In this document: piece by piece, positions 1,678 through 63,426 of the stretch
How positions within the stretch are numbered: the first letter of the stretch is position 1
Layout of the letters: every line of letters begins with the position of its first letter
From: Bacteroidales bacterium
Lineage (GTDB): Bacteria > Bacteroidota > Bacteroidia > Bacteroidales > VadinHA17
Reading direction: 5' to 3'
Assembly (NCBI GenBank): GCA_025454795.1
Contig: JALONT010000011.1
Coordinates: 1-64,000, forward strand
DNA length: 64,000 nt
Translations under genes and position numbers: made by a program
Notes under the pieces: generated by a model
The model's database searches: none
Seen by the model: only the letters and a program-made list of their open reading frames with translations
What the model was told of the DNA's origin: nothing

Positions 1678-2733
1678 ATGCCGGAGAATGATGACATAAA
1701 ATTCATGCAAAGGTGTCTTGACCTGGCGCAAAAAGCGGAAGGGATGACCAGGCCGAATCCTATGGTCGGTTCGGTTATTGTTCATGGTGGATTGATTATC
1801 GGGGAGGGGTATCACATGAATGCCGGAGGTCCTCATGCAGAGGTAAATGCAATCAAATCTGTAAGAGATAAAAGCCTCCTGGGATCATCAGCACTTTATG
1901 TGAACCTTGAACCCTGTTCACATTTCGGCAAAACACCGCCATGTTCAGATTTGATTATTTCATCAGGAATCAGGAAGGTAATTATCGGTACCAAAGATAC
2001 AAGTGAAAAGATATCAGGACAAGGTATCGCAATGCTTAAAAAAGCCGGGCTGGATGTAAGTACAGGAGTTCTTGAGGAGAAATGTCGCAGTATTAACAGG
2101 CGTTTTTTCACCTTTAATGAGAAAAAAAGACCCTACATAGTTCTTAAATGGGCGCAAAGTGCTGATGGTTTTCTGGATATTGAACGTGGAAAGGGCATAA
2201 AGCAAAGACCTACATGGATCACTGGCGGGGCTGAAAGAGTTCTTGTGCATAAATGGAGGGCTGCTGAACAGGCAATTCTTGCCGGGGCAGGAACAATCAG
2301 GGCCGATGATCCTCAGCTGACCGTCAGGGATTGGACCGGTGAGAATCCGTTACGGCTGATACTCAGCAGTTCAGGACGAATAGAAGAAGAATCCATGTTA
2401 TTTAAAATAGATGGCACAAATATTGTGTTTACACATAATGACGGCACAAAAGTTGCCGGGGCAGTTACAGTGAAAATGGATTATATAAGAGGGTCCTCAC
2501 TGCAAGTTGCTGAATACCTTTATAGTATTGGAATTCAATCATTAATGGTAGAAGGAGGCGCCAAAGTACTGGACCATTTCATTAAGACGGATTTTTGGGA
2601 TGAGGCCAGAATTTTTTACGGGGAGGAAGATTTTAAACATGGGATCAGGGCACCGGTTGCAGATGGCAGGATCCTTTCCCGGAAAAAATTCAGTCACAGT
2701 TCCCTTGAGGTAATTTTAAATGAGAAGGGTTGA
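1678..2733 (+). CDS. ribD: Bifunctional riboflavin biosynthesis deaminase/reductase RibD
   Basis: RibD catalyses two consecutive steps of riboflavin synthesis: deamination of the diaminopyrimidine intermediate, then NADPH-dependent reduction of its ribosyl group. The N-terminal deaminase domain shows the zinc site HAE at 53-55 with cysteines 80 and 89 in PCSHFGKTPPC, and the conserved RPNPMVGSVIV near residue 25. The reductase domain begins near 145 with RPYIVLKWAQSADG and continues through a VEGGAKVLDHF segment. At 351 residues it is full length. No other rib gene is adjacent, so the pathway is dispersed in this genome. The start at 1678 gives the usual short N-terminus. Confidence 0.96.
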   Translation: MPENDDIKFMQRCLDLAQKAEGMTRPNPMVGSVIVHGGLIIGEGYHMNAGGPHAEVNAIKSVRDKSLLGSSALYVNLEPCSHFGKTPPCSDLIISSGIRKVIIGTKDTSEKISGQGIAMLKKAGLDVSTGVLEEKCRSINRRFFTFNEKKRPYIVLKWAQSADGFLDIERGKGIKQRPTWITGGAERVLVHKWRAAEQAILAGAGTIRADDPQLTVRDWTGENPLRLILSSSGRIEEESMLFKIDGTNIVFTHNDGTKVAGAVTVKMDYIRGSSLQVAEYLYSIGIQSLMVEGGAKVLDHFIKTDFWDEARIFYGEEDFKHGIRAPVADGRILSRKKFSHSSLEVILNEKG

Positions 2734-2745
2734 CCTTCGCAATGG

Positions 2746-2776
2746 TTGATAATTATAATAAAATTATATAATTTTG
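2746..2776 (+). promoter_or_regulatory. Predicted Bacteroidota-type promoter of the caspase-like gene
   Basis: TTG at 2746-2748 and TAATTTTG at 2769-2776 (a perfect TAnnTTTG) are separated by 20 bp, fitting the Bacteroidota -33/-7 pattern. Transcription would begin near 2783, which rules out a TTG start at 2778 and supports ATG at 2811. Confidence 0.65.
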
Positions 2777-2810
2777 ATTGTTGGTTAAATCTCAATTAAC
2801 AGATATAGTT

Positions 2811-5153
2811 ATGAAGAAGAGAATATTTTTTCTGGTAACCATAATGGCCATTTTAACAATGTCCGTTTATGGGCAGAACGGCAAAAAGTCCTTCAATGCC
2901 GGAAATGAGTTTATGAAGAATATGAAATATGAGGATGCTGTTGTCCAGTTCACAGGAGCCATAGCAGTTGAACCTTCAAATGGTAATTATTATTATGCCA
3001 GGGGGAAGGCATATGAGGCACTTAATAATTATAAGGACGCTAAAGCCGATTATGAAAAAACATTGGTGTTCACTCCCAAAAATGTTGATGCTCTAATCCG
3101 TCTGGGTGCAGTCTGCAACAATACAGGAGATTTTGCAGAAGCATTGAAGCATTTGAACCGTGCCACAGGAATTGACAAGAGAAACTCAACCGTTTACCCC
3201 ATAAAAGTCAATACTCTTATTGGTCTTGAGAAATATGACCAGGCGCTTAAAGCTTCTGATACGGCTATTATTGTAAAGGATACCCCGATGAACTATTATT
3301 ACCGCGGGCTGATTTATTCAAGGCTGAATAACGATATATTAGCAAAAAGGGAACAGGAGAAAGCTATTTCGAAAAATAAAAAACTCGCTGAACCAAGACT
3401 TGCCCTTGCAGAGATCCTTCTGAAAAATAATGACCCTGAGGGTGCTCTTGATCAGTGTAATGAGGTTCTTAAGAACGATGACAGAAATACCACTGCATAC
3501 CTGATGAGGAGCCTGGTTCACCGGAAAAATATTGATTATCCGAGTGCAATAGATGATCTCTCCAAGAACATACTTATTGAGCCTGATAATCCCCAGTTTT
3601 ACCTTGACCGCGGGCTATGTTACCAGGAATTCAATCAGCATACAAATGCAATCAACGATTTCAAGAAATACATCTCCCTGAATCCGAACAATCCTGTTGC
3701 ATTCTTCGCCAGAGCTAAATCATATGAGGAGATTATGGATTATGATAAGGCTATGGAAGATTACTCAAGGATCACGGTACTTTCGGAATTTGACCCGAAA
3801 GCTCACAAGATGCTTAAAAGTGCCCAGGACAGGCTCTATGAACTTAACAGGGAAACAGTTGCTCCTGAAATTAACCTGATAAGCCATACTCCTGTAAATG
3901 AGTCTATTGAAATAAAAGGAGATAATAATACTATTCTCATTTCCGGGAAAATCAAAGAAAAAAGCAATATTAAATCATTGACTATTAATAATCAGCAAGT
4001 TACAACTACCGGGAAAAATGGGGAATATGATTTCTTAACGAATGTCAATGTAAGCGGACTGGATAAGATTACGTTAATTGCACGCGATGATTATGATAAT
4101 GAGAAATCTTTGACATACTCGCTGATCCGCACTGAAATCAATCCTCCCAAAATTACTGTTCTGGCACCATATGCATCCGATGATGGTCAGATCTATCTTG
4201 AAAATAACTCTCAGAATCTTGTCCTCCAGGGAAAAATTACAGATGAGAGTAAAATCAAATCAATTTTCGTCGAAGGAATTAATGCAGCCTTTCCATCCAG
4301 TGAATTGAATCCCACATTCTCAACCACACCAATAGATATTCTTAATAAGAATAAAATTATTGTTGAAGCTGAAGATATTTACGGAAACCGTCAGGCAAGC
4401 GAATTCCGTCTTAACAGGGATGCTGCCGCCATTGCCGAAACAAACCCTATGGGTAAAACATGGGTGGTTTTCGTTGAAAACTCAAACTATTCGACTTTTG
4501 CCAGCCTCGATGGGCCGGTCAAGGACATTAACCTGATGGTCAGGGCATTCGCAAACTATCAGATCCAGAACATCATCCATAAACAGAATATGACCAAAGC
4601 TGAAATGGAAAAATTCTTTTCCATTGAGCTCAGAGATCTTATCAAAACAAACCAGGTCAAATCACTGCTCATCTGGTATGCAGGACATGGAAAATTTATA
4701 AATGAAGTCGGGTACTGGATCCCGGTCGATGCCAAACGTGATGATGAATTTACCTATTTTAATATCAACACATTGAGGGCATCAATGGAGACTTATCTGA
4801 GTTACCTCACACATACACTGGTTGTTACCGATGCATGTGAATCAGGCCCCAGTTTCTACCAGGCAATGAGATCGGAAATGAAGAAGAGAAGCTGTGACGA
4901 CTGGCAGGCGACCCAGTTCAAATCATCCCAGGTATTCTCCTCTGCCGGATATGAGCTTGCGGTAGATGATTCCCAGTTTACAAGAACATTTGCTACGGCC
5001 CTGACTAACAACCCGAATGCCTGTATACCGATTGAAGAGGTGGTGGCAAAAGTGGTTACTGCTGTTGGCGGAAATAACCAGCAGAGACCCAAATTCGGAA
5101 AGATAACGGGGTTGAAAGATGAGGATGGTACTTTCTTCTTTATAGCCAGATAA
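2811..5153 (+). CDS. Secreted TPR-repeat protein with Ig-like domains and C-terminal caspase-like peptidase domain
   Basis: The 780-residue product starts with a signal peptide (MKKRIFFLVTIMAI, cleavage near VYGQN), so it is exported. About nine tetratricopeptide repeats follow to roughly residue 350. Two beta-rich, Ig-like segments follow (each opens with a proline-rich strand and contains an ISGKI/LQGKI strand). The C-terminal caspase/peptidase C14 domain carries the expected dyad: His626 in YAGHG and Cys676 in DACESG. Family knowledge predicts cleavage after basic or acidic residues; the substrate is unknown. The TPR part suggests protein binding. I chose ATG 2811 because it begins the signal peptide and lies after the predicted promoter. 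The SpoIIE-type gene starts 5 bp downstream, so the two probably form an operon. Confidence 0.85.
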   Translation: MKKRIFFLVTIMAILTMSVYGQNGKKSFNAGNEFMKNMKYEDAVVQFTGAIAVEPSNGNYYYARGKAYEALNNYKDAKADYEKTLVFTPKNVDALIRLGAVCNNTGDFAEALKHLNRATGIDKRNSTVYPIKVNTLIGLEKYDQALKASDTAIIVKDTPMNYYYRGLIYSRLNNDILAKREQEKAISKNKKLAEPRLALAEILLKNNDPEGALDQCNEVLKNDDRNTTAYLMRSLVHRKNIDYPSAIDDLSKNILIEPDNPQFYLDRGLCYQEFNQHTNAINDFKKYISLNPNNPVAFFARAKSYEEIMDYDKAMEDYSRITVLSEFDPKAHKMLKSAQDRLYELNRETVAPEINLISHTPVNESIEIKGDNNTILISGKIKEKSNIKSLTINNQQVTTTGKNGEYDFLTNVNVSGLDKITLIARDDYDNEKSLTYSLIRTEINPPKITVLAPYASDDGQIYLENNSQNLVLQGKITDESKIKSIFVEGINAAFPSSELNPTFSTTPIDILNKNKIIVEAEDIYGNRQASEFRLNRDAAAIAETNPMGKTWVVFVENSNYSTFASLDGPVKDINLMVRAFANYQIQNIIHKQNMTKAEMEKFFSIELRDLIKTNQVKSLLIWYAGHGKFINEVGYWIPVDAKRDDEFTYFNINTLRASMETYLSYLTHTLVVTDACESGPSFYQAMRSEMKKRSCDDWQATQFKSSQVFSSAGYELAVDDSQFTRTFATALTNNPNACIPIEEVVAKVVTAVGGNNQQRPKFGKITGLKDEDGTFFFIAR

Positions 5154-5158
5154 TATAA

Positions 5159-8100
5159 ATGAAAATAAAATTTTGGTCCTTCAGTATTAAGGTCATCAGG
5201 CACATAAGCCTGATGACCTTATTTATTGCGCTTCCATTAAATTTCCTGAAAGCCCAGACATATTTTTTTGAAAAGTACGGGGTGGAACAGGGATTAAGCT
5301 CTTCTAAAGTCTATTCTGTCTTGCAGGATAAGAATGACTGGATATGGCTCGGAACTGAAAGCGGTGTATCGAGATTCAACGGCTCAAAATTTGAGAATTT
5401 TTCTTCCAGGAACGGATTGGCTTCCGGCGGAGTTATGTGTCTTGCAGAAGACACTCTTGGCAGAATCTGGTTTGGCCATCTTAATGGAGGTATCTCCATT
5501 TTTGACAATGGCAAATTCTCAAAACTAAAATTCGATACAATTTCAATCTATCAGGACATTTCCGGCATAAGGCAAAAAGACGGAAAAATCTGGATCGTAA
5601 CATTAAGCAACGGAGCTATCCTCACAAATTTTCCGGAACATGGAGATACCCTCCTTACCGGAAGACAATATAGGGGGAAAGAAGGGCTGAGCGACCAGGT
5701 TTCAAGTATCTGTGTTGACAATAACAACAATTTTTACTGCATAACTCCTCCTGCAGGCATTAAAAAGTTCAATCCCTCGAAAGATGCTTTTGAGACCTAT
5801 CTTCCCGAAGGATTGACAAAATACTTCAATGTCATAGTCATGTATCAGGATAAGAAGGGTAATTTCTGGTATGGGACCTATAACGGTGGACTCTACAAAT
5901 ATGATTTTGAATCCCGGAAGATGAAGATATATGATATACGCGACGGACTTTCAAAGAACTGGATATCTTATATTACTGAAGACTACCTCGGGAGAGTATG
6001 GGTAGGCACTTTTGGTGGCGGAATAACAGTGTTTGACGGCAACAAACTTACAGTCTTTAACGAATCGAACGGACTTGTAGCAACGACTATCCACTGGATG
6101 ATTGAGGACAAAGAGAAAAATATGATTCTTGCTGATCATTACACAGGAATAAGCATCTTTAAGGGGGACCATTTTGTCACATGGTCAAATGAAAAATTTC
6201 TTCCGGAAAAAAGCGTATATGCTGTTGAAGAGGACGAGCTCGGAAGATACTGGTTCGGAACGAATGGAGGTTTATCTATTTACGATCCTTCAGACAAGAG
6301 CAAAAATGAAGTTCAGTTCATTAACACGATCGGGAATAAAATAAGGTTCATCAAATCAGATAAACATGGTACTGTATGGATCGGGACTGAGGGATCAGGA
6401 TTGTTCAGATATGATATTAAATCGGGCAAATTCATATATGACACACAAATAAATCAGAATCTTCATTACAATGGCATAATTACGGCACTGGCAATTGACA
6501 GGAAGGAAAGACTCTGGATTGGAAATATGGACAGGCTGGTAATGTACGATGCTTCATCTGATGAGGTTTCATATTATTTACAGGAGAACGGTCTTGCAGG
6601 AACATCAATAACGGCATTATATTGTGACAATGATAATAATACATGGATAGGTTCTGAAAACAAAGCAGGACTTACAAAATTTGATTCTTCAACAGGAAAA
6701 TTCAAAATTATCAGTATAGGTGAAGGATATATTCCAAAAACAATAGCACAGACTCCTGATAAAAGAATATGGATTGGAACAACAAGCGGTCTTCTGGGAT
6801 TGAAAAACGATTCCGTTGTTCTTGTAATAAACGAAGGCAGCGGACTATTGTCTGATAATATAAAACTTCTTCAGCCTCAGGGAGACAAGTTCCTTTATAT
6901 TGGTACTAACTATGGTCTGAACAGATATAACCTTTCCGATAGCACTATCGCTTCTTTTACAAAACGTAACGGTTTTCCCGGAATAGAAGCGCTTCCTAAT
7001 TCAGTTACTACAGACACTAAGGGCAATATTTGGTTTGGAACTGCCAACGGGGTTACTCGTCTTGATCCAAAACTAATGCCACCAAGTGACATAAAACCGG
7101 TAATTCATTTAAGCAGCATGGAAGTCAACTATGTCCCAAGGGTTATGAAGAAAGACATGAAACTAAGCTTTAAGGATAAGAATATATTATTCAACTATTA
7201 CAGCGTCTCCCTGGTTGATCCTGATGCAGTGAAATTTAAGATAATGTTGAAGGGATTTGATAGTGACTGGGGTCGCCCAACCAGAGAGACTATGAAAGAT
7301 TATCCATTGCTGCCGGGTCATTATACCTTTAGCATAAAAGCTTTAAACAGTTATGGTTACTGGAACGAGAATCCTATTGAGTTTCCTTTTATTATAAAAC
7401 CTCCGTTCTGGAAGACACCCTTGTTTATTGCGATATGCATAATCCTGGCAACAATAGGGATAATCTCTTATATCAAGATCAGAGAAAGGAATCTGATACT
7501 TGAAAAGAAAATACTTGAAGCTAAAGTTGAAGAGAGAACTGCCGAGGTTGTACAGAAAAGCATGGAGATCGAGGAAAAGAACAGGGATATTACTGCAAGT
7601 ATCCGTTATGCCGAACGTATTCAAAGGGCTATGCTGCCTGCTGAAGATTCTTTTCATGAAACATTTGTTCTCTTTATGCCTAAAGATATAGTCAGTGGCG
7701 ATTTTTACTGGATGTACGACACCGGCAGCCATCAGTTTATAGCTGCATGCGATTGTACCGGACATGGTGTTCCCGGAGCCTTCATGTCGATTATCGGGCA
7801 CAACTCACTTAATAAAGTTGTAAGGGAATACGGAATCATCCGTCCTGCAGCAATTCTTGATCAGCTTAATAATGAAGTACTTAAAGCCCTCATGCAGCGG
7901 AAGGAAGAGACCATAAATGATGGAATGGATATGACTCTTATTGCCTTTGACAAAAAGGATTTCATTCTCGAGTTTGCAGGTGCTTATAACCCTCTTTATG
8001 TGGTAAGAAATGGTGAAGTGATTGTTTATAAGGGTGACCGGTTCCCTATCGGAATGACAGCAATCGGAGCAAAAAAGAATTTTTCTAACCAGATAGCTGA

Positions 8101-8335
8101 TATACAACCCGGCGATATGATTTATATGTGTTCCGACGGATATGCTGATCAGTTCGGGACTGCTGAATCAAAGAAATATAAATCAGGTAATGTTAAAAAA
8201 CTATTGGCAAGAATATGGAATCTTCCTGTGAAAGAACAGGGTGAATTTCTTAAAAAAGAGATTCTTAACTGGAAAGGTGATCTTCCTCAGGTCGACGACA
8301 TAATGTTTATAGGAACAAGGATTCCTGAGCGTTAG
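5159..8335 (+). CDS. Two-component-type beta-propeller sensor with Y_Y_Y domain and SpoIIE (PP2C) phosphatase output
   Basis: This 1058-residue membrane protein has a signal peptide and then a long periplasmic sensor. Roughly residues 40-640 are repeated blades with the signature (I/R)WIGT or VWVGTFGGG, as in the paired propellers of Bacteroides hybrid two-component systems. A Y_Y_Y-type beta domain follows (about 660-745), then one transmembrane helix near 754-775 and a coiled coil to about 815. The cytoplasmic C-terminus is a SpoIIE/PP2C serine phosphatase, not a histidine kinase. Its metal-binding motifs are visible: SGDFYW, CDCTGHG, CSDGYADQFG and the final VDDI. The protein likely converts an external ligand signal into dephosphorylation of an anti-sigma-antagonist-like target, none of which is nearby. 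A hairpin lies inside its first codons (5189-5220). Confidence 0.88.
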   Translation: MKIKFWSFSIKVIRHISLMTLFIALPLNFLKAQTYFFEKYGVEQGLSSSKVYSVLQDKNDWIWLGTESGVSRFNGSKFENFSSRNGLASGGVMCLAEDTLGRIWFGHLNGGISIFDNGKFSKLKFDTISIYQDISGIRQKDGKIWIVTLSNGAILTNFPEHGDTLLTGRQYRGKEGLSDQVSSICVDNNNNFYCITPPAGIKKFNPSKDAFETYLPEGLTKYFNVIVMYQDKKGNFWYGTYNGGLYKYDFESRKMKIYDIRDGLSKNWISYITEDYLGRVWVGTFGGGITVFDGNKLTVFNESNGLVATTIHWMIEDKEKNMILADHYTGISIFKGDHFVTWSNEKFLPEKSVYAVEEDELGRYWFGTNGGLSIYDPSDKSKNEVQFINTIGNKIRFIKSDKHGTVWIGTEGSGLFRYDIKSGKFIYDTQINQNLHYNGIITALAIDRKERLWIGNMDRLVMYDASSDEVSYYLQENGLAGTSITALYCDNDNNTWIGSENKAGLTKFDSSTGKFKIISIGEGYIPKTIAQTPDKRIWIGTTSGLLGLKNDSVVLVINEGSGLLSDNIKLLQPQGDKFLYIGTNYGLNRYNLSDSTIASFTKRNGFPGIEALPNSVTTDTKGNIWFGTANGVTRLDPKLMPPSDIKPVIHLSSMEVNYVPRVMKKDMKLSFKDKNILFNYYSVSLVDPDAVKFKIMLKGFDSDWGRPTRETMKDYPLLPGHYTFSIKALNSYGYWNENPIEFPFIIKPPFWKTPLFIAICIILATIGIISYIKIRERNLILEKKILEAKVEERTAEVVQKSMEIEEKNRDITASIRYAERIQRAMLPAEDSFHETFVLFMPKDIVSGDFYWMYDTGSHQFIAACDCTGHGVPGAFMSIIGHNSLNKVVREYGIIRPAAILDQLNNEVLKALMQRKEETINDGMDMTLIAFDKKDFILEFAGAYNPLYVVRNGEVIVYKGDRFPIGMTAIGAKKNFSNQIADIQPGDMIYMCSDGYADQFGTAESKKYKSGNVKKLLARIWNLPVKEQGEFLKKEILNWKGDLPQVDDIMFIGTRIPER
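5189..5220 (+). other. Perfect 13-bp inverted repeat within the first codons of the SpoIIE-type gene
   Basis: AAGGTCATCAGGC at 5189-5201 is exactly complementary to 5208-5220 with a 6-nt loop. It begins 36 bp after the caspase stop codon and falls in the signal-peptide codons of the downstream gene. It could attenuate transcription or translation between the two genes. The following sequence has no long T-run, so it is not a standard terminator. Confidence 0.6.
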
Positions 8336-8907
8336 ATCTTGGCTATTTTACGCCACTGCTCATTATCCCTCGCATTTTTACTGAGAGCAATGATGACCTC
8401 TTCCGGGGTTTTTACTATTTGCCATATACCTTTATGCTCACATCTCATAAAGTTATTTTCAATCATGTTATCAATGAACCTGATCAGAGAATCATAATAT
8501 CCCTTTGTGTTCAAGATTATTATCGGTCCGTAAAACAGGCTAAGCTGTTTTAAAGTAATTGCTTCAGTAAGCTCTTCAAGTGTCCCAATCCCTCCTGGCA
8601 TTGCAACAACGGCATCGGCCATTGAAAACATTTGTTTTTTCCTTTCACTCATATCCCCGGTAATGATCATATCCTTCACACCGTTATGGCCCCAGCCCTC
8701 CTCCTTCATAAATGCAGGAATCACTCCTGTAATCTTTCCCCCCTCTGCAAGAACTGCATCGGCAAGTTTCCCCATGAGACCTATACCGCCACCTCCGTAG
8801 ACAACAGCCATCCCGGATTTTGCAAGCAGAGTTCCAAGCCTGGCTGCAATAACTCCGTATTCTTTATCTATCCTGCTGCTTGAAGCAGCAAAAATGCAAA
8901 TTGTCAT
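8332..8907 (-). CDS. LOG family protein (TIGR00730; cytokinin riboside 5'-monophosphate phosphoribohydrolase-like)
   Basis: LOG proteins hydrolyse the N-glycosidic bond of nucleoside 5'-monophosphates; they were long misannotated as lysine decarboxylases. The 191-residue protein shows the Rossmann-type VYGGGGIGLMG loop near residues 37-47 and the signature PGGIGTLEELTEA near 104-116, which contains the catalytic glutamate. Length is normal for the family. It converges on the SpoIIE-type gene, sharing 4 bp at the stop codons, and lies downstream of trxA with a terminator between. The physiological substrate in Bacteroidota is not known, so the call is to family only. Confidence 0.88.
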   Translation of the reverse strand: MTICIFAASSSRIDKEYGVIAARLGTLLAKSGMAVVYGGGGIGLMGKLADAVLAEGGKITGVIPAFMKEEGWGHNGVKDMIITGDMSERKKQMFSMADAVVAMPGGIGTLEELTEAITLKQLSLFYGPIIILNTKGYYDSLIRFIDNMIENNFMRCEHKGIWQIVKTPEEVIIALSKNARDNEQWRKIAKI

Positions 8908-49613: not shown

Positions 49614-49873
49614 TTAAATCATCCCTTAAGAATACCCTGAAATTTGAAAATACAAGTTAAGAATTAATACTAAGCGGAAAGATAGGTATTTAATCTTATT
49701 AATATAAATTCGGTTCAGGGTTTACCCTTTCTTGGGTTAGACCGGTAACTTCCCAGATATTGCAGCAGACAGGCACATTAAATACATTTTCTTTTTCAAT
49801 AACCCGGATTTCTTTGCAGAGTCATCTATTTGTTATAATTTTATGTCTTAATAACCTACCTGATCTTCTTTGC
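49614..49873. other. Divergent intergenic region, no clear promoter
   Basis: No gene or repeat is evident. An open frame precedes the next gene from 49760 but it has no coding character. The acyltransferase and the SiaB-like genes diverge here; no TAnnTTTG element in a good position was found. Confidence 0.4.
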
Positions 49874-50989
49874 ATGGATCTCACACGTCGGATTCGCGAT
49901 AAAATGATGGAAGAACGCCTGATGTTTGTTTACAGGGGCGTTGTTACAAACGAAAATTCCGTTCCCCTGCTTATGCTTCTGGAGAAAGAGATGGAGAATG
50001 CAGAATTTGGATTTGTGGGAAGGAAAAGACTCTTTATGTTTGTGCTGGAAAGCCTGCAGAACGTTTCACGGCACAGTGACAGGAATGATCATGCTAATAT
50101 GTCACTGGTTGTTTATTCCAAGTCAGACAGTGGGTATACTGTGACAACTGGTAACGTTATTTCCACATCTAATATCCTTGACCTGAAAAAAAAGCTGGAT
50201 GAGATCAATCACCTTGAGACAAAAGAGATCAGGACTGTTTACAGACAAATGCTGAGTAACTCCGAATTCAGCACCAAGGGTGGAGCCGGGCTCGGACTTA
50301 TAGAAATGGCAAAGAAAACAGGGAATAAGCTTGATTACGATTTTCTGGAGCTGGATAATGTCAATTCATATTTTATTTTAAGTAAAACAGTTGATTCAGA
50401 GGGAGTCGGAATGCATTTCGGTGCTGCTGAAAAACCCTTCAGGGGTAAAGCTGTGGCCCAGCTTGAAAGACTGCTGGCAGAAAATAATATCTATCTTATA
50501 TGGTCAGGCCACATATCTCAGGACGTTGGAAAGGAAGTCCTGTCCTTCACTGAAACGAAACTGGCTGAAGATGATATAGAATCAAATCTGCGTCGACGGG
50601 TATTCAGTATTCTTGTAGAAATAATCGAAAATGTCGCAAAATACAGTCCGGGACAGGAAGCTGAAGAGCAATATGGAATGCCTGTTGCTATGATAAGATT
50701 TGAAAATAACATATATTCTGTCACAACAGGCAACCTGATCCTCAATGATAAGGTGGAGCACCTGAAAGGGAAACTGGACCTTATTAATCAAAATGATAAG
50801 GCAGGTCTGAAAGAACTCTTCAGAAAGTCCCTGTCAGTACAAACAATAAGCACTGACGGTACTGGAAATATGGGGCTCATTGATATGGCAAGAAAATCAG
50901 GAAGCAAGCTTGTTTACCTGTTTGAAAAGATAAATGACCTTTATTCCTATTACACTCTGACAGTAAAAATTGAAGAAAACAGCGGTTAG
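49874..50989 (+). CDS. Protein with two tandem SiaB-like/GHKL (DUF6272) domains
   Basis: The 372-residue protein consists of two similar halves of about 185 residues. Each starts with an amphipathic segment (YRGVVTNENSVPLL, LIWSGHISQDVG). Each then has a GHKL N-box (ESLQNVSRHS near residue 70; EIIENVAKYS near 258), a VTTGN turn, and a G-box-like GGAGLGLIEMA or GTGNMGLIDMA. This is the pattern of SiaB-type proteins (DUF6272), where SiaB is a kinase for a SiaC anti-sigma-antagonist-like protein. Published SiaB proteins have one such domain, so two in a row is unusual. The frame is open upstream to 49760, but MDLTRRIRDKMMEERLMF at 49874 fits the family start. It ends 4 bp inside the convergent lpxH gene. 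Confidence 0.75.
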   Translation: MDLTRRIRDKMMEERLMFVYRGVVTNENSVPLLMLLEKEMENAEFGFVGRKRLFMFVLESLQNVSRHSDRNDHANMSLVVYSKSDSGYTVTTGNVISTSNILDLKKKLDEINHLETKEIRTVYRQMLSNSEFSTKGGAGLGLIEMAKKTGNKLDYDFLELDNVNSYFILSKTVDSEGVGMHFGAAEKPFRGKAVAQLERLLAENNIYLIWSGHISQDVGKEVLSFTETKLAEDDIESNLRRRVFSILVEIIENVAKYSPGQEAEEQYGMPVAMIRFENNIYSVTTGNLILNDKVEHLKGKLDLINQNDKAGLKELFRKSLSVQTISTDGTGNMGLIDMARKSGSKLVYLFEKINDLYSYYTLTVKIEENSG

Positions 50990-54280: not shown

Positions 54281-56230
54281 ATGAGTTACATAAAGTTCGA
54301 AAAGGCACAGATCGTCAATCTTGAGTTTTCGCTTGGTAGGGAAATCATCAGAACAAACAGAGCCGGATCATATGCTTCTACAACTATAGTTGAGTGCAAT
54401 ACACGTAAATATCATGGATTGCTTATCTGCCCGGTGGATGAGCTTGGCGGAGGCAGATACGTTCTTCTTTCTTCTCTTGATGTAACCGTTGTAAACAATG
54501 ACAAAAGTTTCAATATTGGTATCAGAAAATATAAAGGTGATTATTTCAGCCCGAAAGGGCACAAGTACCTTGAAGACTTTGGAACTGAAAGCATTCCGGA
54601 AAGGATATTCAGGGTGGGAAATGTCTTGCTGAAAATGGAGAGGCTGATAGTTCATTATGAAGAACAACTGCTGGTAAGGTACACGATCCTTGAGGCTTCG
54701 GAACCTATGAAGCTTCAGTTAAGACCGTTTCTGGCTTTCAGGAGCATCCATGAGCTGACTCATGCAAACCTTGCTGCCAATACGAAAATAGAACCGGTTA
54801 AAAACGGTATAAAATCCAAAATGTACGAAGGATTCCCATCGTTGCATATGCAGTTTTCATCAAAAGCTGAATTTATTCATGTGCCTGACTGGTTCCTTGG
54901 AGTGGAATATATCGAAGAACAGAAAAGAGGTTATGATTATTCAGAGGATCTTTTTACTCCGGGATTCTTTGAACTGAATGCAAAGAAGGGCGACACAATT
55001 GTATTTTCAGCGTCAACCCATGAGGAAAATCCAACAGGCTTTAAGACTAAATTCACAAAGACCGTTGCAGGTAAGATTCCCCGGGATAATTTTGTTAACT
55101 GTCTCAGGAATGCAGCTCAGCAATTTATTGAAAAAAGAGGTGGTGAAGTACTGATTATTGCCGGATATCCCTGGTTTGGATCCTGGGGCAGGGATACATT
55201 TATTTCGCTGCCAGGACTTGCTATGGCCCGCCATAAACTTACTCTCTTCAGGGAAGTGCTCGATACACAGGTGAACAGAATGAAGGACGGTTTGTTCCCC
55301 AACATGGGGGCAGGAGGTCATTATGCATTTAATTCCGTTGATGCTCCGTTATGGTTCTTCTGGTCCCTTCAGCAATATATGGAAAACGGAGGCTCTGATT
55401 GTTGTGAACGATACGGAGCAGCAGCAAAATCAGTACTGAATGCATATAAGAATGGCACTGCTTTTAATATTCATATGAGAGACAATGGCCTTGTTTATGC
55501 AGACGCTCCGGGAAAATCTCTGACCTGGATGGATGCTGTTGTAAACGGGATTCCTGTCACACAGCGAAGAGGTTATGCAGTGGAAATAAATGCCCTCTGG
55601 TATAATGCGGTATGCTTCGCATTGAAGATGGCAGAAACCGAGAAAGATAAAAAATTCATTAAAGAATATGATTATCTGCCTGACCTGATTAAAAAATCAT
55701 TTGTTGAATTATTCTGGGACGAAAAGACAGGTTACCTGGCAGATTATATTAATGATGAGGAGGGAAGCAACTTTTTTGTCAGACCAAATATGATCATGGC
55801 CGTTTCACTTCCTTACACAATGCTTGAAAAGGATCAAATGAAGAAGATTCTTGATATAGCAGATAAAGAGCTTGTTACACCAAGAGGGCTCAGGACGCTT
55901 TCTCCCGGCAATAAATTTTATAAGGGAACCTATTATGGCAACCAGGAAGAGAGAGATAAAGCATATCATCAGGGTACGGTCTGGCCATGGCTTTTTGGTC
56001 CATTCTGCGAAGGATGGTTAAGGGTGTACGGAAAACAGGGAGTGAAGAAAGTAAAAAATCTTATTTGCGGCCTTGAGGAATGTATGGGCGAACATGGTAT
56101 AACTTCACTATCGGAAATCCATGACGGAGATCCACCGCATGCTCCCCGTGGTGCAATTTCTCAGGCATGGAGCGTGGGTGAGGTATTAAGGATAATTGAC
56201 TTGCTTAAGAAAAATTATTCAAATCAATAA
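54281..56230 (+). CDS. Glycogen debranching enzyme (amylo-alpha-1,6-glucosidase type)
   Basis: The enzyme removes alpha-1,6 branches from glycogen or maltodextrin. The 649-residue protein has a beta-rich N-terminal domain (GDE_N; RAGSYASTTIVECNTRKYHG in pieces, LLICPVDELGGG). An (alpha/alpha)6 barrel follows with GYPWFGSWGRDTFISLPGLAM near 288-308, which contains the catalytic aspartate. It continues with LTWMDAVVNGIPVTQRRGYAVEIN and HQGTVWPWLFGPFCEGWLR, both conserved in the family. It has no signal peptide, so it is cytoplasmic. It heads the glycogen cluster and the next gene starts 13 bp after its stop. Confidence 0.92.
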   Translation: MSYIKFEKAQIVNLEFSLGREIIRTNRAGSYASTTIVECNTRKYHGLLICPVDELGGGRYVLLSSLDVTVVNNDKSFNIGIRKYKGDYFSPKGHKYLEDFGTESIPERIFRVGNVLLKMERLIVHYEEQLLVRYTILEASEPMKLQLRPFLAFRSIHELTHANLAANTKIEPVKNGIKSKMYEGFPSLHMQFSSKAEFIHVPDWFLGVEYIEEQKRGYDYSEDLFTPGFFELNAKKGDTIVFSASTHEENPTGFKTKFTKTVAGKIPRDNFVNCLRNAAQQFIEKRGGEVLIIAGYPWFGSWGRDTFISLPGLAMARHKLTLFREVLDTQVNRMKDGLFPNMGAGGHYAFNSVDAPLWFFWSLQQYMENGGSDCCERYGAAAKSVLNAYKNGTAFNIHMRDNGLVYADAPGKSLTWMDAVVNGIPVTQRRGYAVEINALWYNAVCFALKMAETEKDKKFIKEYDYLPDLIKKSFVELFWDEKTGYLADYINDEEGSNFFVRPNMIMAVSLPYTMLEKDQMKKILDIADKELVTPRGLRTLSPGNKFYKGTYYGNQEERDKAYHQGTVWPWLFGPFCEGWLRVYGKQGVKKVKNLICGLEECMGEHGITSLSEIHDGDPPHAPRGAISQAWSVGEVLRIIDLLKKNYSNQ

Positions 56231-59202: not shown

Positions 59203-62200
59203 ATGAAGGCTGAATTTATTTTTGAAACTAGCTGGGAAGTATGCAACAAGGTGGGTGGCATTCATACTGTCATTTCAACAAAAGCCCTGAACATTGTTGA
59301 TGAGCTTGGAGATAATTACATACTTATCGGCCCGGATGTCTGGAGGGAGGATATAAAGAATCCTGAATTCATTCAGGATGAATCCCTGTTTGCTGAATGG
59401 AAAGACAGGGCTGCGTCCGAAGGATTAAGAGTAAAAACGGGTCGATGGAATATTGCAGGCAGACCAATAGTAATGTTGATTGATTTCACACCATATTTCG
59501 GACAGCAAAATGAGATCTTTGCAACTTTCTGGGAAACTTATAAGCTCGACAGCATCTCAGGGCAATGGGATTATGTAGAGCCTGCACTGTTTGGTTATGC
59601 TGCCGGGAAGCTGATCGAGAGCTTTACAACTTTCTATCATGAGCATCATAACATAGTTGCTCAGTTCCATGAGTGGATGACCGGAACCGGAATCCTGTAT
59701 CTTAAAAAGCAGGTACCCTGGGTTGCCACATCATTTACTACACATGCTACAGTACTCGGTCGTTCCGTGGCAGGAAACAACAGGCCCCTGTACGGGAAGA
59801 TGAAAGAATATAATCCTGCTCAGATATCCCGTGAATTTAATGTAGTTGCAAAACAGTCACTGGAGAAGATTTCTGCAGTTGAAGCGGATGTTTTTACTAC
59901 TGTAAGTGAAATTACTTCGAAAGAGTGCAGCCATTTCCTGGGGAAAGATGTTGATATAGTCACTCCAAACGGATTTGAAGATTCATTTGTACCGGGCAGC
60001 GACGTTTTTGAGAAAAGAAGGCAGGAAGCCAGAACAAAGCTTAAGAATGTGGCAGAAGCAGTCCTCGGATATAAGCTTTCAGGTGATTGTATTCTTGTGG
60101 TAAACAGCGGAAGGTATGAATTCAGAAACAAGGGAGTTGATATATTCATTGATTCTCTTGGCGAAATGAACAAAAAGGACCAGCTTAAAAAAGAGTGCGT
60201 AGCCTTTATCCTCATGCCTGCTTATCATAAGGGTCCTCGCCAGGAGTTGATTGACATTCTTTATAATAAAGGTCCTTCTAATAATGGAGACCGTTATCTC
60301 ACTCATAGCCTGCACTATCCATCAAACGATCCTGTACTTCAGAGAATAGGCACCAACAACCTGAGCAATGATCAGAAATCACAGGTCAAGATAATCTTTG
60401 CCCCATCATACCTTAATGGCAACGACGGCATATTCAACATGCCATATTATGATCTCCTGATCGGTTTCGATCTTTCAGTATTTCCCTCATATTATGAGCC
60501 ATGGGGATATACTCCCCTTGAAAGTCTTATGTTCTCTATCCCGACAGTTACTACATCCCTTTCAGGCTTCGGGCTTTGGGTAAGAGATTATTTCAGGGAG
60601 CCCGGTAACGGCATTTCAATAATTGAACGTACTGACGATAACGAAGATAAAGTTATCTCGGAAATCGGGATATTTATGTCAATGTTCATTGGGCTGAGTG
60701 AAGAAGAAGTAAAGGTTGCAAGTTTAAAAGCACATGAGATCTCCCGGATAGCCATGTGGGACTCTCTTGTTCAGCATTATTTCACCGCTTATGGGAAAGC
60801 TCTTATCCACAGCAGCGAAAGAAGAGATGAACCAAGGGAATTTATCCGCTTTGTTGAGTCTCCGGGTCTCCGTATCCGTAAACCTCACCAGGTACCAGTC
60901 TGGAAAGATATTTATGTCCAGAGCGATGTGCCTGATAAACTGGCATATCTTAAAGAACTCGCCAATAATCTTTGGTGGTCCTGGAACACTGAAGCTGAAG
61001 AAATATTCAAAAACATGGACCCTTCTCTCTGGGAAGAGGTAAAGCATAATCCCAAGCTGCTTCTGGAAAAGATTGATTATAAACGGCTTCTGGTGCTTGA
61101 GGATGATGATGAGTTTGTAAGAGTGCTTAACACTGTTTATAAGATATTTAAAGAAAATATTAACCGACCGGATGATACCGCAAAACCGTCTGTTGCCTAT
61201 TTTAGCATGGAATTTGGAATACATCCGTGTCTTAAGATATATTCCGGAGGTCTGGGAATTCTTGCAGGCGACTATCTGAAAGAAGCCAGCGACTCAAATA
61301 TTAACATTACCGGTATAGGCATTCTTTACAGGTATGGTTATTTCAGACAAAAGCTGGGACCTAAGGGAGAACAACTGGCAATTTATGAAGCTGAGGAGTT
61401 TGCAAGACTTCCAATAAATCCGATAAAAGACACAAGTGGCAACCATCTGACAGTCAGCCTTGTATGGCCGGGCAGGACAGTGAAAATACGTGTCTGGGAA
61501 GCAATGGTTGGTAAGGTCAGGCTCGTACTTCTCGATACCGATCACGACGACAACACGCCGGAGGATCGTACCATAACTCATTATCTGTACGGAGGTGATA
61601 ATGAAAACAGGCTGCGTCAGGAACTTATCCTGGGTATTGGTGGCATCAGGGCTCTTGTTGCTATGGGACTGAAACCGGATGTTTATCACAGTAATGAAGG
61701 ACATTCGGCATTTATAAGCCTGGAAAGGATGCGGACAATGATTGAAGAGAATCATCTTACATTTAATCAGGCACTTGAAGCTGTCAGAGCGTCAACTTTA
61801 TTTACAACCCATACTCCGGTACCGGCCGGTCATGATGCATTTGACGAAGACCTTCTGAGAAAGTACATTTCACATTATTCTGACCGCCTGAATATCTCAT
61901 GGGAGGGACTTATGTCACAGGGCCGGTGCGATGGCGACGTTGATAAAAAGTTCAACATGAGTTACCTGGCAACCCGTATGTCTCAGGAAGTGAACGGCGT
62001 CAGCAAACTTCATGGAGAGGTGAGCCAGGGTATGTTTAATAAATTATGGCCCGGTTATCTCAAGGAGGAGCTGTTTATCGGCTATGTCACAAACGGAGTT
62101 CACCACCCGACATGGACGGCGCCTGAATGGCGTAAAGTATATAAGGAGCTTACAGGGACAAGCAATTTTGATCAGACTGAAAGAAGTCTCTGGGAAAAAC

Positions 62201-63426
62201 TATATAGTATTGATGATAAAAGGATATATGAAATTAAAAAGGACCTTAAGAAGAATCTTTTTACAAACATCAGGAAAAGGCTTCAGTCCGATATGATAGA
62301 AAAACACGTAAGTCCGCGGACTCTTCTCAATATCAGCAGTCACCTTGATGAAAAGGCACTTACGATAGGTTTTGCCCGACGTTTTGCTACCTATAAAAGA
62401 GCTTCTCTTTTATTCCGGGACCTCGACCGTCTTGCACGTATTGTAAATAATCCTGAAAAACCTGTTCAGTTCATTTATGCCGGAAAAGCTCATCCGCATG
62501 ACGGCGGAGGCCAGGATCTTATCAAAAGGGTTTATGAAGTATCCCAGATGCCACAATTTTCAGGCAAGGTTATTTTCCTTGAGAACTATGATATTGAACT
62601 GGCTAAATACATGGTCAGGGGTGTCGACATCTGGTTGAATACACCTACACGACCACTTGAAGCTTCAGGAACAAGCGGAGAAAAAGCAGTAATGAACGGG
62701 ACTATCCATTTCAGCGTTCTTGACGGTTGGTGGGTTGAAGGTTACAGGGCATTTGCCGGGTGGGCGCTCCCCAAGAAAAGAACATTTACCAACCAGGAAC
62801 TTCAGGACGATATAGATGCTGAGACTATATACAACATGCTGGAATTTGAGATTATACCGGCATATTATTCATTCAACGATCAGGGAATTCCTGTTGAATG
62901 GGTCAGCCTTATCAAGAATACAATGGTAAAGATTGCCCCTGAATTCACTATGAAAAGACAGCTCGATGATTATTATGAAAAGTATTATTCAAAACTCTTT
63001 ATTCGCAGCAAAGATCTCATCGAAAATAATTTTGAGAAAGCAAAAGAACTTGCAACATGGAAGAAGGAAATGAGAGATGAGTGGGATAACATCGAGGTAC
63101 TGAATTATAGTTTCGAAAAACCCGGAGAAAATGTGTATCATTCAGGACACGACTACAGGGCAGAAATTGCTCTGAATGTTGGTAAGATACCTAAAGAGAA
63201 TGTAGGCGTGGAATTCATTATAACCCATATGAGCAAGCAGGGTGAACATGAGTTTGTTGCAAGCAAGGAATTCACGATAGTAAGCAGTAAGGGAGGTAAA
63301 TGTCTTTACAGGGCTAACATGGTGCCCGAAAAAGCAGGTACGTTCTTTTATGGGATACGCATTTATCCAAAACACAAAGATCTTCCTCACAAGCAGGATT
63401 TTTATCTGCTGCGGTGGATTGATTAA
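59203..63426 (+). CDS. Fusion of GT3 glycogen synthase and GT35 alpha-glucan phosphorylase
   Basis: The 1407-residue protein joins two opposite activities. Residues 1-560 match GT3 glycogen synthase of the eukaryotic type: FETSWEVCNKVGGIHTVIST at the start, HEWMTGTGILYLKK, and SYYEPWGYTPLES near 430 with the E-x7-E donor site. Residues 570-1407 are a GT35 alpha-glucan phosphorylase of the short type: LANNLWWSWNTEAEEIF, YFSMEFGIHPCLKIYSGGLGILAGDYLKE in pieces, VYHSNEGHSAF, and the PLP site EASGTSGEKAVMNG with Lys1161. Fusions of this kind occur in Bacteroidota. Predicted reactions are UDP-glucose-dependent elongation and phosphorolysis of glycogen. The gene starts 40 bp after the GH57 gene and converges with the branching-enzyme gene. 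Confidence 0.9.
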   Translation: MKAEFIFETSWEVCNKVGGIHTVISTKALNIVDELGDNYILIGPDVWREDIKNPEFIQDESLFAEWKDRAASEGLRVKTGRWNIAGRPIVMLIDFTPYFGQQNEIFATFWETYKLDSISGQWDYVEPALFGYAAGKLIESFTTFYHEHHNIVAQFHEWMTGTGILYLKKQVPWVATSFTTHATVLGRSVAGNNRPLYGKMKEYNPAQISREFNVVAKQSLEKISAVEADVFTTVSEITSKECSHFLGKDVDIVTPNGFEDSFVPGSDVFEKRRQEARTKLKNVAEAVLGYKLSGDCILVVNSGRYEFRNKGVDIFIDSLGEMNKKDQLKKECVAFILMPAYHKGPRQELIDILYNKGPSNNGDRYLTHSLHYPSNDPVLQRIGTNNLSNDQKSQVKIIFAPSYLNGNDGIFNMPYYDLLIGFDLSVFPSYYEPWGYTPLESLMFSIPTVTTSLSGFGLWVRDYFREPGNGISIIERTDDNEDKVISEIGIFMSMFIGLSEEEVKVASLKAHEISRIAMWDSLVQHYFTAYGKALIHSSERRDEPREFIRFVESPGLRIRKPHQVPVWKDIYVQSDVPDKLAYLKELANNLWWSWNTEAEEIFKNMDPSLWEEVKHNPKLLLEKIDYKRLLVLEDDDEFVRVLNTVYKIFKENINRPDDTAKPSVAYFSMEFGIHPCLKIYSGGLGILAGDYLKEASDSNINITGIGILYRYGYFRQKLGPKGEQLAIYEAEEFARLPINPIKDTSGNHLTVSLVWPGRTVKIRVWEAMVGKVRLVLLDTDHDDNTPEDRTITHYLYGGDNENRLRQELILGIGGIRALVAMGLKPDVYHSNEGHSAFISLERMRTMIEENHLTFNQALEAVRASTLFTTHTPVPAGHDAFDEDLLRKYISHYSDRLNISWEGLMSQGRCDGDVDKKFNMSYLATRMSQEVNGVSKLHGEVSQGMFNKLWPGYLKEELFIGYVTNGVHHPTWTAPEWRKVYKELTGTSNFDQTERSLWEKLYSIDDKRIYEIKKDLKKNLFTNIRKRLQSDMIEKHVSPRTLLNISSHLDEKALTIGFARRFATYKRASLLFRDLDRLARIVNNPEKPVQFIYAGKAHPHDGGGQDLIKRVYEVSQMPQFSGKVIFLENYDIELAKYMVRGVDIWLNTPTRPLEASGTSGEKAVMNGTIHFSVLDGWWVEGYRAFAGWALPKKRTFTNQELQDDIDAETIYNMLEFEIIPAYYSFNDQGIPVEWVSLIKNTMVKIAPEFTMKRQLDDYYEKYYSKLFIRSKDLIENNFEKAKELATWKKEMRDEWDNIEVLNYSFEKPGENVYHSGHDYRAEIALNVGKIPKENVGVEFIITHMSKQGEHEFVASKEFTIVSSKGGKCLYRANMVPEKAGTFFYGIRIYPKHKDLPHKQDFYLLRWID

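Follow-up and report, generated by a model that had tools for sequence, protein, structure and literature searches.

SiaABC of Pseudomonas aeruginosa, a known biofilm switch, and BT4663 of Bacteroides thetaiotaomicron, a hybrid two-component system (HTCS) protein and sugar receptor, are among the closest described counterparts of the locus presented here. Prokaryotic metacaspases (peptidase C14) are another, and cleave after arginine or lysine; to our knowledge, most prokaryotic caspases have no assigned function, and their discussion has usually centred on cell death. The biochemistry of SiaA, SiaB, SiaC and SiaD is established (PMC7647112, PMC8457831). SiaC has a fold like that of anti-sigma-factor antagonists, its known output being an enzyme and not a sigma factor (PMC7647112). 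In a survey of metacaspases and orthocaspases, the tetratricopeptide repeat (TPR) was a common companion domain of C14 and SpoIIE was nowhere mentioned (PMC3501461). Here we describe two adjacent genes from a Bacteroidales bacterium, both on the plus strand of a 64,000-nucleotide stretch of contig JALONT010000011.1 (the window), which encode an exported caspase-like protein and an exported beta-propeller receptor ending in a SiaA-type phosphatase domain. That the two form one conserved functional unit is well supported by their linkage across Bacteroidales. The components are of known kinds; their composition and its conservation appear not to have been described in the open-licence literature searched. 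An earlier interpretation of the window, made without database searches (the sequence-only reading), knew of no described system of this composition, and searches of that literature for caspases with SpoIIE, propeller or SiaC families gave no account of the pair.

The caspase gene (2811–5153) and the receptor gene (5159–8335) are separated by 5 base pairs (bp), the order and spacing being as first described. Conserved adjacency, which the sequence-only reading had named as the way to check its proposal, was found. GTDB contigs were scanned and the best 80 of 236 relatives were retained, giving 79 informative loci. The receptor lies directly downstream of the caspase in 77 of these, with a median gap of 8 bp; L118 has the caspase with no receptor nearby, and L086 ends too early. 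The genes also co-occur in genome sets. Among 98 relatives, 41 contain both genes, 57 contain neither and none contains one alone (Fisher's test, p = 1e-28, relatedness ignored). In an order-level set of 392 Bacteroidales genomes of at least 90% completeness, with the receptor scored at a strict threshold, the caspase was present in 47 and the receptor in 41, all of them within the 47, and thus in 0 of the 345 caspase-less genomes. Three of the six caspase genomes without a scored receptor (G150, G227, G379) have an adjoining receptor that is frameshifted, cut by a contig end or below threshold, and the other three (G174, G178, G336) have none beside the caspase and gave no hit at the threshold. 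By coordinates, 39 of the 41 receptors adjoin a caspase gene; for G388 this is judged from the start of the receptor on the contig of the caspase (L170). In G092 and G094, both genes are kept but on separate contigs.

As the Fisher's p value ignores relatedness, stronger evidence comes from adjacency that is independent of context and from joint loss. The window's pair lies in a locus with prmC, ribD, LOG and dnaE that is syntenic in many genomes, and adjacency is also kept away from these genes (L158, L164, L172, L173, L226–L231, L233, L236 and L238). Where the pair is missing from the syntenic locus, LOG directly follows ribD, as at five sampled genus-level loci (L244, L245, L247, L251, L252), none of which retains a remnant. 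On the DnaE tree, five presence/absence changes are needed, at least three of which are forced by well-supported branches, and the sister of G028, a genome without the pair, is the pair-bearing L061. Comparison shows that the pair has been inherited, moved and lost together. Moreover, G095 and G099 encode beside the receptor an exported protein of 261–263 amino acids that consists of the caspase domain only, and a short and a long caspase stand in tandem before the receptor at L084, L094 and L100; L086 has this tandem too. Therefore, the caspase domain and not the TPR part is the constant partner of the receptor. Each of the six short caspase-only proteins examined has the His/Cys dyad.

The receptor (1058 amino acids) resembles BT4663 in its ectodomain and SiaA in its cytoplasmic domain, as judged by profiles, sequence and fold. 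Its signal peptide, whose cleavage was placed by inspection, is followed at residue 33 by a Gln that is invariant in 36 sequences. The ectodomain (5255–7402) comprises two beta-propellers (residues 33–640; PF07494, expectation value (E) = 1e-42) and a Y_Y_Y domain (residues 645–748; PF07495, E = 7e-9). In an AlphaFold2 model with a mean predicted local distance difference test score (pLDDT) of 85.5, the fold of the entire ectodomain matches that of BT4663 (4A2M/4A2L, E = 9e-48, template modelling (TM) score by target 0.76–0.78). A transmembrane helix follows at residues 754–774 (7418–7480), with a hydropathy maximum of 2.51 and a helix at 754–789 in the model. However, where an HTCS continues with histidine kinase, receiver and AraC-type DNA-binding domains, the receptor has only a coiled coil and a PP2C/SpoIIE phosphatase domain (residues 781–1058, 7499–8332), and its genomic partner is a caspase whereas that of the HTCS is a polysaccharide-use locus. 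The description of a propeller receptor that ends in a SpoIIE phosphatase and not in a histidine kinase was therefore accurate, the domain after the helix being intact.

The phosphatase domain is well supported as SiaA-type, being neither SiaA itself nor of the RsbU/SpoIIE type. The SiaA profile NF038263 matches residues 786–1055 with E = 1e-54. In a search of the PDB, SiaA (6K4E) was matched with E = 2e-30 and the next SpoIIE chain with 1e-5, and the fold match to 6K4E has a TM score of 0.88. The PP2C acidic residues D848, D865, D924, D993, D1046 and D1047 are invariant in 36 sequences, and are likewise intact in SiaABCD (PMC7647112, PMC8457831). The full-length NF038263 equivalog score is 185.8 bits against a cut-off of 700 because the sensor part of the receptor differs: it is a double propeller with Y_Y_Y, whereas the sensor of SiaA has a HAMP domain. 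The generic SpoIIE output of the sequence-only reading, directed at a sigma-factor pathway, thus gives way to a SiaA-type one, SiaA being the closest by profile, sequence and fold. The switches of SpoIIE/RsbU and STAS proteins share with this system the phosphatase superfamily and the action of a phosphatase and a kinase on a STAS-like protein, but sequence and operon partners here indicate SiaB and SiaC.

These operon partners were found in two related families (f21 and f49), in which a SiaB-family kinase and SiaC lie directly downstream of the receptor in seven genomes (G181 and G379; G105, G201, G337, G389 and G433). Because the operon continues in this way in two other families, SiaC is the likely target of the receptor phosphatase, in place of a sigma-factor pathway. 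The anti-sigma-factor antagonist that had been suggested as the target was therefore close in kind, given the fold of SiaC, while the sigma-factor pathway that it implied is disfavoured by SiaB and SiaC downstream in relatives. The operon-borne SiaC copies carry the NTSS phosphosite motif, which holds T68 in P. aeruginosa SiaC (PMC7647112), as does the best SiaC copy of the window's own genome. A protein encoded further on, in G105 and in four of the five f49 genomes examined, contains a SiaD-like stalk segment, ISDRLQ, aligned by eye, which corresponds to the SiaC-contacting residues I81, S82, R84 and Q86 of SiaD (PMC8457831); in f49 this is a coiled-coil membrane protein. These are further likenesses to SiaABCD. 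In contrast, the module adds an exported caspase, no GGDEF cyclase was seen, and SiaB and SiaC lie elsewhere in the genus of the window. The window's own operon contains neither, although both families are found elsewhere in its genome, which encodes 10 SiaC, 3 SiaB, 13 SpoIIE-type phosphatases, 2 stand-alone STAS proteins and 1 RsbW-like kinase. No SiaC-binding ISDRxQ motif was found in the window or in the own-genome loci examined. SiaB and SiaC are present in all 41 pair-bearing genomes of the 98-genome set; because they are present in 75 of the 98 overall, this co-presence is a consistency check and not a specific link.

Small coiled-coil membrane proteins with a SiaD-like, putatively SiaC-binding stalk and without a cyclase domain are encoded at L226 (7479–8003), L227 (5748–6272) and L228 (3374–3898), with proteins of the same type at L229 (3384–3914) and L169 (5208–5774). 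At L226–L229, a TonB-dependent receptor-like gene comes after that of the stalk protein. Towards the far end of the window, a 409-amino acid protein (49760–50989, plus strand) contains two SiaB-family (DUF6272) domains and may serve the SiaC network as a further kinase or regulator.

The caspase-like protein (780 amino acids) was delimited by profiles, alignment and an AlphaFold2 model (mean pLDDT 84.0). Its conserved start is ATG at 2811, replacing the mechanical open reading frame start TTG at 2778, and with this start the dyad that had been called intact is numbered exactly His626/Cys676 (codons 4686–4688 and 4836–4838); both residues are invariant in 40 of 40 aligned sequences. As in the receptor, the hydrophobic N-terminus is by inspection a Sec-like signal peptide (2811–2873), and the expectation that both proteins are exported was thus upheld; cleavage is expected before residue 22, which is Gln in the window and Gln or Glu throughout the 40 sequences (Glu in 3). 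The domain orders given for both proteins also agree with Pfam and the models. The signal peptide is followed by a TPR array (about residues 23–345, 2877–3845; Pfam TPR families, pLDDT mostly 90 or above), two beta-sandwich, Ig-like domains (residues 353–441 and 447–535, 3867–4415), assigned from AlphaFold2 secondary structure with a weak Big_3_3 match (E = 0.017), and the caspase domain (residues 545–780, 4443–5150). A Pfam scan of the full-length protein at E ≤ 0.1 misses this last domain, but a scan of the isolated domain finds PF00656 (E = 9.4e-15, 55.4 bits against a cut-off of 21.4), which places it in peptidase C14. The domain shares C14 and the His-Cys dyad with metacaspases and orthocaspases (PMC3501461), but the protein belongs to a separate, exported TPR-Ig-Ig-C14 subfamily that is linked to a single receptor. 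Beyond Pfam, the domain sequence retrieved only MALT1 (E = 0.58) from the PDB, and a Foldseek search with the whole model was dominated by TPR proteins, with no caspase among the 50 matches listed. The NCBIfam EACC1-type caspase profile scored 33 bits against a cut-off of 140, and the PADLOC caspase profile gave a weak match only (E = 4e-4). Caspase-containing anti-phage defence was rejected as a candidate on these profile scores and on the absence of defence partners among the neighbours examined.

Four loci of one clade (L123, L127, L128, L131) encode a caspase whose N-terminus ends, by inspection, in a lipoprotein-signal-like Cys motif. Three further caspase-like proteins of the window's own genome (L134 5815–6699, L135 6391–8499, L136 4279–6429) also have signal-peptide-like starts, so caspase export may be common in this lineage. 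No SpoIIE gene adjoins these three.

Upstream of the pair, a Bacteroidetes-type promoter-like site (2745–2776, plus strand) consists of a -33 element GTTG (2745–2748), 20 bp, and a -7 element TAATTTTG (2769–2776), assigned by consensus only. A TAnnTTTG box occurs within 130 nucleotides upstream of the caspase start at 72 of the 79 loci, and a full -33/-7 match at 40 of 79. The shared promoter is therefore putative, a consensus match only, and the strength and single transcript ascribed to it by the sequence-only reading are unproven. The neighbours belong to the context and not to the module: ribD (1678–2733, plus strand), which has its own function, lies upstream, and a gene for a LOG-type protein (8332–8907, minus strand; Pfam Lysine_decarbox) is convergent downstream, both assigned by Pfam and synteny. 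Further along the window, a gene for a glycogen debranching enzyme (54281–56230) precedes one for a 1407-amino acid protein (59203–63426, plus strand) matching glycogen synthase, DUF3417 and glycogen phosphorylase.

Taken together, these data lead us to give an even chance to the reading that the pair is one envelope-to-cytoplasm module, in which the caspase would provide a proteolytic input to the receptor and the receptor would dephosphorylate SiaC. From what is known of the families, the receptor would span the inner membrane and its BT4663-like ectodomain would read a periplasmic signal, while the cytoplasmic PP2C domain would reverse the phosphorylation of a SiaC-family protein by a SiaB-family kinase. 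In its unphosphorylated form, SiaC would then bind the stalk of a target protein and alter the activity of that protein. The least certain steps concern the caspase, which might precede the receptor in the pathway and, in the periplasm, cleave the receptor's ectodomain or make or remove its ligand, such that a proteolytic event would set the phosphatase activity. This direction is favoured, not proven, by the shared compartment and by an asymmetry, the receptor never occurring without the caspase and the caspase sometimes occurring alone. The narrower version, in which the periplasmic caspase would start a SiaA/SiaC partner switch by proteolysis of either the propeller receptor or the receptor's ligand and so set a Ser/Thr phosphatase on the other side of the membrane, is put forward tentatively, as the more doubtful of the two. 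An envelope sensing circuit had already been proposed from the sequence; the conserved functional unit and the fitting topology agree with it, but its sigma-factor output does not, giving way to a SiaA-type one.

Several observations weigh against the module. The asymmetry of occurrence is by itself no proof of direction, and joint loss and adjacency would also fit two co-regulated proteins that do not interact. Proteolysis by the caspase, cleavage of the receptor and signalling by the module are what we infer from sequence, and the active-site loops of the caspase model have low confidence. With 10 SiaC and 3 SiaB copies in the genome, none within this operon, several could be the cognate ones. 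The history of the two genes is also less uniform than their linkage. In one genus clade (L061, L062, L065, L066, L071–L074, L077, L116 and L122), the caspase domain and everything after it up to the end of the receptor ectodomain form one contiguous segment with family-level divergence, while the TPR and phosphatase parts are normal, and trees of flank and segment conflict there with strong support. This segment was likely replaced by recombination; as it is contiguous, linkage alone can explain its joint replacement. Between the window and L055, the receptor ectodomain is 92–94% identical, the TPR part 70% and the phosphatase domain 83%, and probably the ectodomain was exchanged alone with no visible involvement of the caspase, which argues against a strictly matched pair. 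A mirror-tree correlation of caspase and propeller rates (partial r = 0.83) falls to about 0.38–0.40, no more than for TPR, once the replaced-segment clade is removed. It was dropped as evidence of interaction, being mostly due to that one clade. Given the linkage within the segment and the exchange of the ectodomain alone, we do not claim coevolution of caspase domain and ectodomain.

Some of these points are what would be expected if the two proteins were co-regulated neighbours, answering the same envelope condition from a shared promoter with no mutual action. The short gap, the shared promoter-like site upstream, the synteny of the whole locus in many genomes, the exchange of the ectodomain without the caspase and the existence of caspase-only genomes all fit this explanation. 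However, it does not account well for co-retention of the genes when unlinked (G092, G094), for adjacency in unrelated contexts, for the lack of any receptor without a caspase in the 392 genomes or for the retention of a caspase-domain-only partner, and we regard it as rather unlikely. Alternatively, the caspase could be the output, an executioner or remodelling protease of the envelope in self-lysis, defence or turnover, with the receptor pathway controlling its production or release. Caspase-like proteases are effectors elsewhere, the weak PADLOC match points the same way, and the f49 operon adds envelope genes including the TonB-dependent receptor-like gene. Yet the caspase leaves the cytoplasm, where the receptor has its output, and its gene comes first in the operon; neither defence-system partners nor effector-associated domains nor a mobile context were seen next to it, and the EACC1 score lies far below its cut-off (33 against 140 bits); we consider this explanation improbable.

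A classical partner switch, in which the substrate of the phosphatase would be a stand-alone STAS protein serving as anti-sigma-factor antagonist and the opposing kinase would be RsbW-like, could draw on the window's own genome, since its two stand-alone STAS proteins have the DSSG motif and an RsbW-like kinase is present. We hold it very unlikely, because the domain is far closer to SiaA in sequence (E = 2e-30 against 1e-5) and fold, relatives have SiaB and SiaC in the operon and not STAS and RsbW, and with 13 SpoIIE-type phosphatases in the genome the STAS and RsbW proteins need not serve this one. It is scarcely probable that the caspase-like protein has a purely non-catalytic role, as a scaffold or co-receptor whose caspase fold would bind a ligand or the receptor and cut neither. 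TPR and Ig-like domains do serve in binding, and the prokaryotic family includes pseudo-enzymes (PMC6426788), but the invariance of His626 and Cys676 in 40 sequences and the dyad of the six short proteins are hard to explain without catalysis.

In many Bacteroidales families, one caspase subfamily is thus bound to a single receptor, and SiaABC, the relative of that receptor's cytoplasmic pathway, is biochemically solved. This pairing gives an exported bacterial caspase a specific, testable role and extends SiaA-type switching to HTCS-like sensors. It also suggests an undescribed coupling of envelope proteolysis to intracellular signalling. If the caspase does initiate the switch, the module would follow, in a bacterial form, the logic of protease-activated receptors.

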